Positions 22,444 through 26,047 of a stretch of DNA of 64,000 nucleotides are shown in pieces. Below the pieces are notes generated by a model. It was not told the DNA's origin. It did not search any database and was given only the letters and a program-made list of their open reading frames with translations. The stretch covers positions 1,488,001-1,552,000 of the forward strand of contig NZ_CP063401.1 of assembly GCF_021729885.1 (NCBI RefSeq). The letters are read 5' to 3'. Each line of letters begins with the position of its first letter. The stretch's first letter is position 1. The translations under genes were made by a program, and so were the position numbers. Source of the DNA: Devosia sp. SL43. Its GTDB lineage: Bacteria > Pseudomonadota > Alphaproteobacteria > Rhizobiales > Devosiaceae.

Positions 22444-23232
22444 TCAAATCCCCGCATACCAGTCATAGCCAGTATCTTCCCAATACCCGCCCCTGCCCTT
22501 GCCGAAGCTAGACAGGTCATCCACCAGTTCGATCGTGTGCAGGTATTTCGGTTGCTTGTAGCCCAGCGCCCGCTCAATCCGCAGGCGTACCGGCGCGCCG
22601 TTGCTCACCGGCAGCACCTGGTCGTTAAGGCCGTAGCTCAGGATCGACTGCGGGTGATAGGCGTCGATCAGGTCCGAGCTGGTATAGTACAAAATATCGC
22701 CCGACAGCGTCCGCTGGATATTGTCGAAGCAGTGATAGACGCAGAACTTCGCTGTCGGCTTGACGCGCGCCATGTCGAGGATCGGCCCCAGCGGCGTGCC
22801 GGTCCATTTGGCAATGCAGCTCCAGCCTTCGACGCAGTCGTGCCGGGTGATCTGACTGCGCGCCGGCATATTGCGCAGCTCGTCGAGCGAGAATTCCAGC
22901 GGCTGCTCGACCATGCCAATGACCTTGAGCTTGTAGCTGGCGAAGTTCTCCGCCTTGAGGAACATATATTCCGGCGTCGTCGGATCGGTGGAGCCGTTGG
23001 GCCGCTGCCCCTGGCGGATTTCGCTCGGGGCATATTCGCGCGCCAGCGTCTGGCTGCCGATGATGGCCCGCTGCGCCTGGTAGGTCAGCACATTGGCTCG
23101 TTCCATGATCTGCCGGGCGGGCCCGCTCTTGTCGGCCAGGAAATCGAATTGGTCGCAACCTGCCAGGACTAGGCCTGAGCCCGCCAGCACCGAGCTGCGC
23201 AGAAAATTGCGGCGCGTGAGAATGGCGCTCAT
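22444..23232 (-). CDS. MsrP/YedY-like molybdopterin oxidoreductase, lipoprotein with twin-Arg leader
   Basis: The 262-residue enzyme belongs to the sulfite-oxidase-fold family. The leader has TRRNFLRSS, a hydrophobic run and a lipobox LAGC, so Tat export and lipid anchoring are likely. The Mo-ligand Cys lies in TRHDCVEGWSCIAKWTG, and PVRLRIERALGYKQPKY is typical of MsrP/YedY. It probably repairs oxidised methionine in the periplasm, with electrons from the cytochrome b encoded just upstream (ATGA overlap at 23229-23232). A sulfite-oxidising role cannot be excluded. Confidence 0.87.
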   Translation of the reverse strand: MSAILTRRNFLRSSVLAGSGLVLAGCDQFDFLADKSGPARQIMERANVLTYQAQRAIIGSQTLAREYAPSEIRQGQRPNGSTDPTTPEYMFLKAENFASYKLKVIGMVEQPLEFSLDELRNMPARSQITRHDCVEGWSCIAKWTGTPLGPILDMARVKPTAKFCVYHCFDNIQRTLSGDILYYTSSDLIDAYHPQSILSYGLNDQVLPVSNGAPVRLRIERALGYKQPKYLHTIELVDDLSSFGKGRGGYWEDTGYDWYAGI

Positions 23233-24080
23233 GGCTTGTCTCCTTCGACGGTGGGTGTGCCGGGGCTGGCGCGATACCAGCCTGTGATCATCGAGCGCAG
23301 CTCGTTGATCGGCCCCGCTGCAAGCACCATGATGATGTGGATAATGAAGAAGCCGACCAGCAACAGCATGACGATGAAATGGATCGTCCGCGCCGTCTGC
23401 CGCCCGCCGAAAATGTCGAGCATCCACGGCGCGATCGCGTTGATGCCAGGGCTCATGGTCAGGCCAGTGGCTACGATCAGGGGGAACAGTACGAAGAACA
23501 CACCGAAATAAGCGATGCGCTGCAATGGTCCATAAGTCCGGCCATGATGAAAGCGCAGCGTGGCGTGGTCCACCACATCCTTTGGCACTCCGGCCACGTC
23601 CTTGGGCCGCACAATAATGTCGCGGCGGATATGGCCGTTGATGAAGCTGGCGAGGAACCAGATGAACATCGTGCCGACGAAAATCCAACCAAAGAAGAAA
23701 TGCACCACGCGGCCAGTGCCGAGGTCCCGATAGGACGGGATGGTCACCGAGCCCGGAAACGCGGTGAAGGTCGGTCGCTCGGCCGACCCGCTCATACCCA
23801 GGCCGATGGCCGTGGTGTCGATCGTCTGGCCGAAGATCGTGGTCTGAGCACGCGGCCCGGCATCGGTATTGATGGCGCCGATCTCGAGGATTGCATTCTC
23901 GAACTCGAAGCCCGATTGCTGGCCGATATAGAGCGCTGGATGGGCGTTGAAGATTTGCAGGCCCGTCAGCAGCAGGAAGAACAGGCAGATCGCCCAGATC
24001 CAGTGCGTCACCCGCGTCCAGATCGATTGACGATAGATCAGCGGCCCTTTGGCCGCTGGCAGACTGGTCGCTTCTGTCAT
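23229..24080 (-). CDS. di-haem cytochrome b partner of the molybdoenzyme
   Basis: The 283-residue inner-membrane protein has four or five hydrophobic segments with conserved histidines (TRVTHWIWAICLF, RVVHFFFGWIF, RTIHFIVMLLL, HIIMVLAAG). It resembles the cytochrome b561/thiosulfate-reductase cytochrome b family, not the smaller YedZ/MsrQ. The start at 24080 has GGAAGAG upstream. It overlaps the molybdoenzyme gene by four bases, so it most likely passes quinol electrons to that enzyme. It lies 84 bases after the methionine-rich protein gene and has no obvious terminator in between. Confidence 0.85.
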   Translation of the reverse strand: MTEATSLPAAKGPLIYRQSIWTRVTHWIWAICLFFLLLTGLQIFNAHPALYIGQQSGFEFENAILEIGAINTDAGPRAQTTIFGQTIDTTAIGLGMSGSAERPTFTAFPGSVTIPSYRDLGTGRVVHFFFGWIFVGTMFIWFLASFINGHIRRDIIVRPKDVAGVPKDVVDHATLRFHHGRTYGPLQRIAYFGVFFVLFPLIVATGLTMSPGINAIAPWMLDIFGGRQTARTIHFIVMLLLVGFFIIHIIMVLAAGPINELRSMITGWYRASPGTPTVEGDKP

Positions 24081-24164
24081 GCTCTTCCCCCTATGGTCGC
24101 ATTTGCCCCGCGACACACCAAGCAACGGTATCCCGCGAGGCGAATGGCGAACATCACATAAATG

Positions 24165-24551
24165 TTATGGCTTGGGCGCCATCGCGTCAGCCGGGGCCAT
24201 AGCATCGGCAGGTGCCATTGCATCGGCGGGAGCCATTGCATCGGCGGGAGCCATGGCGTCTGCGGGAGCCATAGCGTCAGCAGGCGCCATGGCGTCCGGG
24301 ATCATACCGTTATGCATGCCGTGGCAGGCGTCGCTCGCCACCTTCATCACTTCGGGGAAAGTGATCATGCCGGCTTGCTCGAGGCACATCTTGAGATCGT
24401 CGTCGCTCATAGGGGCCATGGCGCCCATGGCGTCGGCCGGGGCCATCGCATCAGTGGCAGGGGCCATCGCGTCCTGGGCGAAGCTGGGAGCGGCGGCAAA
24501 GGCGACTGCGGCAACAGCCGCGAGGGAAAGAGTGCGCAGGGCGAACGTCAT
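24165..24551 (-). CDS. secreted methionine-rich DAMAPA-repeat protein (MrpX-like)
   Basis: The 128-residue protein has a signal peptide (cleavage near APSFA-QDAM). The mature part of about 103 residues has about 17 Met, mostly in repeats of DAMAPA. One block follows the signal peptide and six full copies plus DAMAPKP end the protein. Between them is a short domain with two Cys (KMCLEQAG, SDACHGMHNG). The layout fits a periplasmic sacrificial methionine sink as described for MrpX of Azospira. A SigF-type promoter lies upstream, and a cytochrome b and a MsrP-like enzyme follow. Function is inferred from this context. Confidence 0.8.
   Translation of the reverse strand: MTFALRTLSLAAVAAVAFAAAPSFAQDAMAPATDAMAPADAMGAMAPMSDDDLKMCLEQAGMITFPEVMKVASDACHGMHNGMIPDAMAPADAMAPADAMAPADAMAPADAMAPADAMAPADAMAPKP
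24174..24300. repeat. 18-bp tandem repeat coding for DAMAPA
   Basis: Seven in-frame units of about 18 bases, read on the minus strand as Asp-Ala-Met-Ala-Pro-Ala, lie at the 3' end of the methionine-rich gene. Units differ at synonymous positions. The repeat number is likely to vary among strains. Confidence 0.85.
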
Positions 24552-24604
24552 GTTCTGTCTCCAGAATTTGACCACGCCCCAACGGCGCGGTTCATGCCCT
24601 GCCA

Positions 24605-24630
24605 TTCGGGGCTCGTGTTCAAGGCGTTAC
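24605..24630 (-). promoter_or_regulatory. SigF-type ECF promoter for the methionine-rich gene
   Basis: On the minus strand GTAACG (24630-24625) and CGAA (24608-24605) are separated by exactly 16 bases, and the flank reads CGAATGG. This matches the GTAACC-N16-CGAA consensus reported for SigF of Caulobacter. It leaves a leader of about 45 bases before ATG 24551. Confidence 0.75.
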
Positions 24631-24684
24631 GCGATAACGGTCTCGTGATTGAGAATTCTGCGTTTCAAACTTGTTGGCCCGCAT

Positions 24685-24710
24685 GTAACCTCTGCAGCGC
24701 AGGGAGCGAA
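24685..24710 (+). promoter_or_regulatory. SigF-type ECF promoter for the sigma factor gene itself
   Basis: GTAACC (24685-24690), a 16-base spacer and CGAA (24707-24710) match the SigF consensus and the divergent promoter. Only 10 bases separate CGAA from the ATG at 24721, so the transcript would be nearly leaderless. This indicates autoregulation. Confidence 0.75.
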
Positions 24711-24720
24711 TGACACCACA

Positions 24721-25272
24721 ATGCAGACTGATCCGATCGAAACGCGGCTGCGAGATCTGATGCTCGCATCGCTCGACGGCGACGCAGCGGCCTATAGGTC
24801 TCTGCTGGCCGAACTCGGTCGACATCTGCGCCCGTATTTCACCCGGCGGCTCACCCCCGCCTTTGCATCGCACGCGGAGGATCTCGTGCAGGAGACTCTG
24901 CTGGCTATCCACACCCGCCGCATGACCTATGACCGGACCCGCCCCTTCACGGCGTGGCTGCATGCGGTTGCGCATCACAAGTTCGTCGACCATGTGCGCC
25001 GGCAGTCCATCCGGCTGACAGTGCCGCTGGAAGATGACGCGCCAATCTTTGCCCATGACGACAGTGCCGACGCCACGGCGCGACGAGACCTCGATAGAGT
25101 GCTCGATGCCGTGCCCGCGCGCACCAGCGACCTCATCCGCCGCACCAAGGTTGCCGGCGAGTCGGTTGCAGAAGCCGCCGCCGCCCATGGCATCTCCGAG
25201 ACGGCTGCAAAGGTTTCCATTCATCGCGGCCTCAAGTCGCTGATGACGCGCTTCGCGGGAGGCGAGAAATGA
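24721..25272 (+). CDS. sigF: ECF RNA polymerase sigma factor, SigF type
   Basis: The 183-residue sigma factor has region 2 (EDLVQETLLAIHTRRMTYDRTRPFTAWLH) and region 4 (AEAAAAHGISETAAKVSIHRGLKSL). It probably directs transcription of itself and of the divergent methionine-rich gene from GTAAC-N16-CGAA promoters. The next gene encodes an NrsF-type membrane anti-sigma, and the ATGA overlap at 25269-25272 couples them. In Caulobacter and Azospira, SigF/NrsF respond to oxidants, heavy metals or reactive chlorine. The start at 24721 lies very close to the predicted transcription start; an internal ATG at 24760 would remove part of region 2. Confidence 0.9.
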   Translation: MQTDPIETRLRDLMLASLDGDAAAYRSLLAELGRHLRPYFTRRLTPAFASHAEDLVQETLLAIHTRRMTYDRTRPFTAWLHAVAHHKFVDHVRRQSIRLTVPLEDDAPIFAHDDSADATARRDLDRVLDAVPARTSDLIRRTKVAGESVAEAAAAHGISETAAKVSIHRGLKSLMTRFAGGEK

Positions 25273-25907
25273 CCGACGACCTCATCGCCCGCCTCTCGTC
25301 CGACCTCAAGCCCGTGCGCCCCATGGCAATGCATCGCCTGTTGGTCGCCGCCGTGGTGGTCAGCGGCCTTGTCGCCATCGTGGCCATGAACATGTGGCTG
25401 GGCATGCGCGCGGATATCGCCACGGCGCCGATGACGATGATGTTCTGGACCAAGTTTGGCTACACGCTGGCTGTAGCGGTGCTCGGCGGATTTGCAACGC
25501 TCGCGCTCGCACGGCCGATCGGCGCAGCGCGCTGGCCGTGGCTTGCTATCGGCGTATTGGCGATCCTTTTGGTGATCGGAGCCGCCTGGCAGCTTATGCA
25601 AGCCGAACCGGACGACATGATGCCGCTCGTCATCGGCGGCACGTCACTCGTTTGCCCATGGCGCATCGTCGTCCTGGGACTGCCCGTGCTGCTTGGCGCC
25701 ATTCTCGCCCTGCGCCGCTTTGCCCCTGCCAACCCAACCCTGGCCGGCTTCGCCGCCGGCATCATGGCCGGTGGAACCGGAGCCTGGGTCTATTCTTTCG
25801 CCTGCGGTGAAAACGGCATGATGTTCCTGGCGCTCTGGTATTCGCTGGGGATATTGATCGTTGGAGCGCTTGGAGCGGTGCTGGGGCGGTTCCTACTTCG
25901 GTGGTAG
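25269..25907 (+). CDS. nrsF: NrsF-type anti-sigma factor (DUF1109)
   Basis: The 212-residue membrane protein has a short cytoplasmic N-terminus (MTDDLIARLSSDLKPVRP, conserved in NrsF) and six hydrophobic segments. A pair of Cys lies in extracytoplasmic loops: one in the TSLVCPWR stretch and one in YSFACGENG. In Caulobacter NrsF such cysteines are needed for release of SigF under stress. Translation is coupled to the sigma gene by ATGA. Confidence 0.9.
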   Translation: MTDDLIARLSSDLKPVRPMAMHRLLVAAVVVSGLVAIVAMNMWLGMRADIATAPMTMMFWTKFGYTLAVAVLGGFATLALARPIGAARWPWLAIGVLAILLVIGAAWQLMQAEPDDMMPLVIGGTSLVCPWRIVVLGLPVLLGAILALRRFAPANPTLAGFAAGIMAGGTGAWVYSFACGENGMMFLALWYSLGILIVGALGAVLGRFLLRW

Positions 25908-25936
25908 GCGCAACAAGTCTGCCGACACCCACCAGC

Positions 25937-26022
25937 CGTCACCCTCGGGCTTGACCCGAGGGCTCTTAACTTGCTGGACGTTGGGTAAGTACAGGGCCCT
26001 CGGGTCAAGCCCGATGGTGACG
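25937..26022. repeat. intergenic inverted-repeat element, family C
   Basis: CGTCACC...CCCTCGGGCTTGACCCGAGGG faces CCCTCGGGTCAAGCCCGA...GGTGACG, giving an inverted pair about 30 bases apart. The family recurs at 59031-59120. It lies between convergent nrsF and a ThuA-like gene and may act as a bidirectional transcript end. Confidence 0.75.
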
Positions 26023-26047
26023 ATCGAGTTCGGGAAAGCTTGGGCCG

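Follow-up and report, generated by a model that had tools for sequence, protein, structure and literature searches.

In Devosia sp. SL43, a five-gene locus at positions 22444-25907 of the window (the whole 64-kb stretch of DNA analyzed, from contig NZ_CP063401.1) probably forms part of an extracytoplasmic function (ECF) sigma factor regulon of the ECF16, or SigF, type that would repair methionine sulfoxide in the cell envelope. This reading rests on direct observations: the genes present, their export signals, the motifs of their promoters, the conservation of the locus, its linkage to MsrA and MsrB, and the absence of canonical MsrPQ. We also lean, modestly, toward a more specific proposal in which a PF01292 cytochrome b and a short lipoprotein molybdoenzyme make up a second molybdenum methionine sulfoxide reductase with wiring of its own, which would replace MsrPQ in the genus and be coupled to a regenerable methionine sink with a disulfide-capable C-x19-C core. 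A first-pass annotation of this DNA had described an ECF sigma factor and NrsF divergent from a Met-rich protein, a cytochrome b, and a molybdoenzyme, and a check of open reading frames and profiles found all five genes where they had been located earlier. Transcription on the minus strand runs from the Met-rich protein through the cytochrome b to the molybdoenzyme, and on the plus strand from the sigma factor to NrsF. The features, including predicted export by twin-arginine translocation (Tat), are as follows.

22444..23232, minus strand: YedY-like molybdoenzyme, 262 amino acids, 29.4 kDa, predicted Tat-exported lipoprotein (PF00174, E 2.8e-28)
23155..23232, minus strand: Tat motif TRRNFLR and lipobox LAGC, residues 1-26 of the molybdoenzyme (homologue conservation)
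23229..24080, minus strand: cytochrome b, 283 amino acids, four hydrophobic segments, predicted di-heme quinol oxidase partner (PF01292, E 1.7e-20)
24165..24551, minus strand: secreted Met-rich repeat protein, 128 amino acids, mature chain about 103 (signal peptide, 17 Met)
24324..24386, minus strand: C-x19-C core of the Met-rich protein, Cys56 to Cys76 (same spacing in congeners and in MXKDX proteins of other families)
24189..24296, minus strand: six tandem DAMAPA units (two further units at 24435-24473)
24605..24630, minus strand: SigF/ECF16-type promoter GTAACG-N16-CGAA of the Met-rich/cytochrome/molybdoenzyme operon (consensus from PMC3511200 and PMC8315932)
24685..24710, plus strand: SigF/ECF16-type promoter GTAACC-N16-CGAA of sigma-nrsF (pair conserved in congeners)
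24721..25272, plus strand: ECF sigma factor, ECF16 type (PF04542, PF08281; NF009191 at 189 bits, above cut-off)
25269..25907, plus strand: NrsF (DUF1109) anti-sigma factor with Cys129 and Cys179 (PF06532, E 5.2e-66)

The regulatory half of the locus has the features of an ECF16 system. The sigma factor consists of regions 2 and 4 only and is followed by the DUF1109/NrsF gene, the anti-sigma factor has Cys129 and Cys179 as its sole cysteines, and a promoter of the ECF16 type precedes both the sigma factor's own operon and the target operon. The cysteine positions equal those of OsrA (PMC3420878) and AbcS (PMC8315932). Both promoters lie, divergently, in a 169-bp intergenic gap for which about 3e-4 such N16 sites would be expected by chance, and the 64 kb hold no others. 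The Caulobacter SigF consensus is GTAACC-N16-CGAA (PMC3511200), and the window promoters fit the BcrS sites of Brucella, with the site of the Met-rich operon reading GTAACG (PMC8315932). The same divergent pair occurs in congeners (loci L042-L045, L119-L125, and L132) and in other families (L075, L077, L079, L082, and L087). At the sigma promoter (24685-24723), the CGAA of the -10 element ends 10 bp before the ATG, and the mRNA of the sigma gene probably has almost no leader; the distance from motif start to ATG is 36 bp and is equal in L042-L045 and L079.

The evidence that ties this promoter to methionine sulfoxide comes from outside the window. A third GTAACC-N16-CGAA site in the own genome, at contig 1 position 394217, stands 37 bp before an exported MsrA of 243 amino acids (PF01625, E 9.5e-56; contig 1 394217-395007, L113:1718-2511), which is predicted to be the third unit of the regulon. 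This MsrA is 65% identical to that of a Microvirga operon in which msrA and msrB come immediately after the molybdoenzyme gene of the cassette. Five loci of family f15 (L073, L078, L080, L097, and L099) likewise carry a Met-rich protein, the cytochrome, and the molybdoenzyme, followed within about 2 kb by matches to MsrA and MsrB. Among loci chosen by promoter resemblance before their genes were known (L126-L131), a SigF-type site precedes MsrA in L126, L127, L128, and L131 and MsrB in L129 and L130. When an unselected list of MsrA genes was set against the list of motifs, a site fell within about 100 bp in 6 of about 21 genomes with readable lists (G000, which is the own genome, G687, G697, G700, G703, and G705); the expectation, estimated from a density of about six sites in 4 Mb, is far below one. 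The first-pass annotation had suggested a differently built version of the Azospira hypochlorite defense, and MsrA and MsrB sharing a promoter or operon with the cassette give independent support to its idea of a Met sink served by a molybdenum reductase. Control of Msr genes by ECF16 has a precedent in Bradyrhizobium EcfF (PMC3420878). The remaining N16 sites of the own genome (L115-L118) were dismissed as chance occurrences with no sensible gene start within 100 bp.

The molybdoenzyme opens with MSAILTRRNFLRSSVLAGSGLVLAGC, a Tat motif and then a lipobox. Its likely start is the ATG at 23232; the mechanical open reading frame, which begins with a TTG at 23688, is too long. Arg7 and Arg8 of the Tat motif are invariant across 68 homologues, at least 95% of which also retain Cys26 of the lipobox. 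A periplasmic enzyme anchored to the membrane is thus the norm for the family, and the lipobox noted at first pass stands. The molybdenum-ligand Cys133 lies in HDCVEGWS, of which Cys133, Val134, Glu135, and Trp137 are invariant in the same set. The nearest solved relative is Escherichia coli MsrP/YedY, whose CVEAWS aligns with CVEGWS at the ligand cysteine. MsrP is also the highest-scoring named model, at 81 bits against an equivalog cut-off of 207, while the scores for SorA (55), SoxC (41), and SorT (19 bits) compare with cut-offs of 600, 420, and 570 and do not identify a sulfite dehydrogenase. A single-sequence structure model of the molybdoenzyme was uninformative, with a predicted local distance difference test (pLDDT) score of 32. 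Elsewhere on contig 1 of the own genome (4018396-4018899, L114:2397-2900), a secreted Oxidored_molyb-fold protein of 167 amino acids, barely above the Pfam cut-off, is encoded downstream of a response-regulator-like gene.

The cytochrome b gene is directly upstream of the molybdoenzyme gene and overlaps it, and the two are adjacent in the relatives' pair loci. His26, His127, His172, His234, and His248 are invariant in the 68 homologues, and four of them lie in or at the hydrophobic segments, consistent with two b hemes; His26, His127, His234, and His248 support the di-heme assignment made earlier. The partner is thus of the PF01292 family and not the PF01794 family of MsrQ, and PF01794 was not found in the own genome; the earlier claim that this cytochrome takes the place of YedZ is borne out. 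Canonical MsrP was missing from all seven genus members sampled. Exclusion between MsrP and the cytochrome/molybdoenzyme pair across the order was considered and proved only partial (by hand count, MsrP occurs in about 31 of 64 genomes with the pair versus about 169 of 233 others), and the argument for replacement is therefore confined to the genus level.

Together, the two proteins call for a correction to the first-pass annotation, as they fit what has already been named YedY-like group 1B of the sulfite oxidase family. Members have a molybdenum domain of about 30 kDa rather than 35 kDa, which the 29.4-kDa window enzyme shares, and a membrane cytochrome other than that of group 1A, left unnamed in the review's text, for which the adjacent PF01292 protein qualifies (PMC7759655). 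By mass and by its non-MsrQ cytochrome, matched by description, the window molybdoenzyme fits this group. Group 1B enzymes are presumed reductases for which the review gives no tested substrate, and links of the window type to ECF16, a Met-rich protein, or MsrA/MsrB are absent from its account of the group (PMC7759655). The same 2020 review names MsrP as the sole molybdenum sulfoxide reductase known outside the dimethyl sulfoxide reductase family (PMC7759655).

The mature chain of the Met-rich protein carries 17 Met in 103 residues (binomial p of about 1e-9). The first-pass annotation had singled out DAMAPA as the repeat unit, and eight exact units are indeed present. Compared pairwise, their codons show 100 synonymous differences and 0 nonsynonymous ones, so selection acts on the DAMAPA peptide and not on the DNA. 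Homologues occur at the equivalent position in seven other congeners, and among congeners the arms vary (DAMAPA, DAMATD, GDAMGG, DAMKAD) around a constant C-x19-C core. DAMAPA is a local drift of a variable arm, and the core is the conserved part of the protein in the genus. A single-sequence model (pLDDT 51) hints weakly at helices 50-60 and 66-82 around Cys56 and Cys76 and leaves the arms disordered. Like proteins of the MXKDX/MrpX type, the window protein is exported, has a Met every 5-6 residues, and occupies the equivalent place in its operon. The MXKDX model TIGR02953 gave no match to it, and counterparts in Agrobacterium and Rhizobium score 49 and 78 bits. The C-x19-C spacing is identical in MXKDX proteins from Rhizobiaceae, from Microvirga, and from one f15 locus, which is weak evidence of common origin. 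A tblastn search of plasmids with the Met-rich protein, run with low-complexity filtering on, returned no matches.

A secreted Met-rich protein precedes the cytochrome/molybdoenzyme pair in 13 of 61 loci. A link to ECF16 or to MsrA/MsrB is present in 12 of these 13 and in 8 of the 48 others (Fisher p 8e-7, kinship ignored). In two loci, L098 and L111, the slot before the pair holds an equally Met-rich protein that is unrelated in sequence, which favors Met content itself as the selected property. The proteins of L098 and L111 (L111:3625-3861) are Met/Lys-rich, secreted, and directly before the pair, with no adjacent ECF16 sigma factor.

One refuting outcome named beforehand was a gene set without conservation in related genomes. 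The cassette instead recurs both within the genus and in other families. All 37 genus genomes carry the cytochrome, and in about 64 of 297 genomes of the order it lies next to the molybdoenzyme. Members of three families, the window's own, f2, and f23 (taken for Rhizobiaceae), hold the full cassette of sigma factor, NrsF, Met-rich gene, and both enzymes. Plasmid-borne cassettes occur in Agrobacterium larrymoorei, Rhizobium phaseoli, and Microvirga ossetica, in all three of which the annotation of the small protein reads 'pentapeptide MXKDX repeat protein', as well as in Neorhizobium. The Rhizobiaceae relatives with the cassette use a cytochrome of the b/b6 type. Usually with such an MXKDX protein, the cassette occurs widely in Hyphomicrobiales (Rhizobium, Agrobacterium, Neorhizobium, and Microvirga) and is therefore not peculiar to the window organism. 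The differently built version suggested at first pass thus stands as to its Met sink, molybdenum reductase, and other cytochrome and not as something peculiar to this organism. The principle was known before; what differs is the build, a widespread variant that the literature searched does not recognize as such. One related pair, L109 on Paraburkholderia fungorum pBIL, lies near cueR and a heavy-metal P-type ATPase and has no Met-rich gene.

A mechanism can be proposed from these parts. By analogy with related systems, NrsF would tether the sigma factor to the membrane; an oxidant striking the periplasmic Cys129 and Cys179, perhaps Met residues too, would release it to fire both divergent promoters. 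The Met-rich protein would be exported and its methionines oxidized sacrificially by bleach-like oxidants. As expected for its family, the cytochrome b would pass quinol electrons through two b hemes to the lipoprotein molybdoenzyme, which would reduce methionine sulfoxide in the sink as well as in other proteins of the periplasm. The matching promoter suggests that the same sigma factor may also drive the exported MsrA elsewhere in the genome.

Several observations weigh against a methionine-repair regulon. MsrA and MsrB were not found in the 64-kb window, MsrA has no SigF-type site in most congeners with readable lists, and most cytochrome/molybdoenzyme pairs of the order have no ECF16 sigma factor nearby. 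At least five congeners (L043-L045, L124, and L125) lack the Met-rich gene while retaining the sigma factor, NrsF, and both enzymes; the sink is therefore dispensable, and these loci amount to its natural deletions. Finally, Caulobacter SigF responds to chromate and cadmium and not to reactive oxygen species (PMC3511200), so the inducer of the window system is not safely inferable. This last point also lends itself to a defense against copper, chromate, or cadmium, in which the Met-rich protein would chelate Cu(I) or soft metals, the NrsF cysteines would sense metal, and the molybdoenzyme would repair collateral damage or act on another oxide. Stretches rich in Met that also contain His can bind Cu(I), and the pBIL pair has metal genes for neighbors. 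However, that copy lacks a Met-rich gene, neither the surroundings of the window locus nor the other cassettes read contain a metal gene, and the shared promoter and shared operon lead to MsrA and MsrB, which makes metal defense quite unlikely. We also consider it unlikely that the molybdoenzyme oxidizes or reduces some other small molecule (sulfite or other S- or N-oxides), with the Met-rich protein a structural or signaling peptide under the same stress sigma factor. The protein does score below all curated cut-offs for named enzymes and is weakly similar to SorA and SoxC, and a Caulobacter SigF target, YedY, is described as a sulfite oxidase subunit (PMC3511200). Yet MsrP outscores both of those models, MsrP/YedY is the nearest solved relative with a near-identical ligand motif, and linkage to MsrA/MsrB suggests methionine sulfoxide as the substrate.

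A third alternative, compatible with methionine sulfoxide repair, is that the window system is simply BcrXQP of Brucella in another genus and its construction not new; we hold this to be nearly an even proposition. In Brucella melitensis bcrS-abcS/bcrXQP, an ECF16 sigma factor and an NrsF-type anti-sigma factor are likewise divergent from genes for a Met-rich protein, a heme protein, and a molybdoenzyme, with GTAACC-N16-CGAA in both the bcrS and bcrX promoters and the gene order of the window (PMC8315932). The cytochrome b/b6 type of the Rhizobiaceae relatives also speaks for identity. So does gene order, as E. coli has msrP before msrQ, unlike the window and Brucella. If BcrQP were of the PF01292 type, as its order hints, the variant would already have been studied under the MsrQP name. 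On the other side, B0020-B0019 are presented by the Brucella authors as homologous to E. coli MsrQP (PMC8315932), and BcrQP, compared by description only, is thus described as of the MsrQP type whereas the window pair is not of that type. BcrX is annotated MXKDX, whereas the window protein falls outside that model. No Brucella with the published bcrX/bcrS promoter pattern was found among the genome contigs and the 395 genomes of family f23. The bcrXQP operon, laid out like the window's, is induced by hypochlorous acid (HOCl) and contributes to HOCl resistance, such data existing only for the Brucella system of the two (PMC8315932).

Other characterized systems share parts of the window's design. 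Azospira SigF-NrsF-MrpX-YedY1-YedZ1, as cited in PMC8315932, combines a Met-rich periplasmic sink with a YedY-fold enzyme under an NrsF-controlled sigma factor. On that description, the window locus differs in having a PF01292 cytochrome b where Azospira has YedZ (PF01794), a molybdoenzyme that is a shorter lipoprotein, and a DAMAPA repeat with a C-x19-C core. Bradyrhizobium EcfF-OsrA pairs an ECF16 sigma factor with a DUF1109 anti-sigma factor bearing Cys129 and Cys179 and controls methionine sulfoxide reductase genes; unlike in the window, an operon of a Met-rich sink and a molybdoenzyme is not reported (PMC3420878). Burkholderia cenocepacia BCAL1105-1107, compared by description, encodes an exported protein, a cytochrome b561 family protein, and an oxidoreductase in that order, with no ECF16 link reported, unlike in the window (PMC2830190). 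These genes are induced by sodium hypochlorite and hydrogen peroxide, the rise with hypochlorite being 12.7-, 8.3-, and 3.4-fold (PMC2830190). Both this response and the HOCl induction of bcrXQP agree with the proposed methionine-repair regulon.

If the window pair is a second molybdenum methionine sulfoxide reductase, YedY-like group 1B gains a function. The operon and promoter shared with MsrA/MsrB, the Met-rich neighbor, and the absence of MsrP in the genus sample offer a concrete and testable substrate for that group, and they outline a compact ECF16 methionine-repair regulon, chromosomal and plasmid-borne, in soil and plant-associated Hyphomicrobiales. Beyond the locus itself, an inverted-repeat intergenic element, CTTGACCCGAGGG ... 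CCCTCGGGTCAAG, lies 3′ of nrsF at 25935-26030 and resembles the short palindromic repeats common in alphaproteobacteria.

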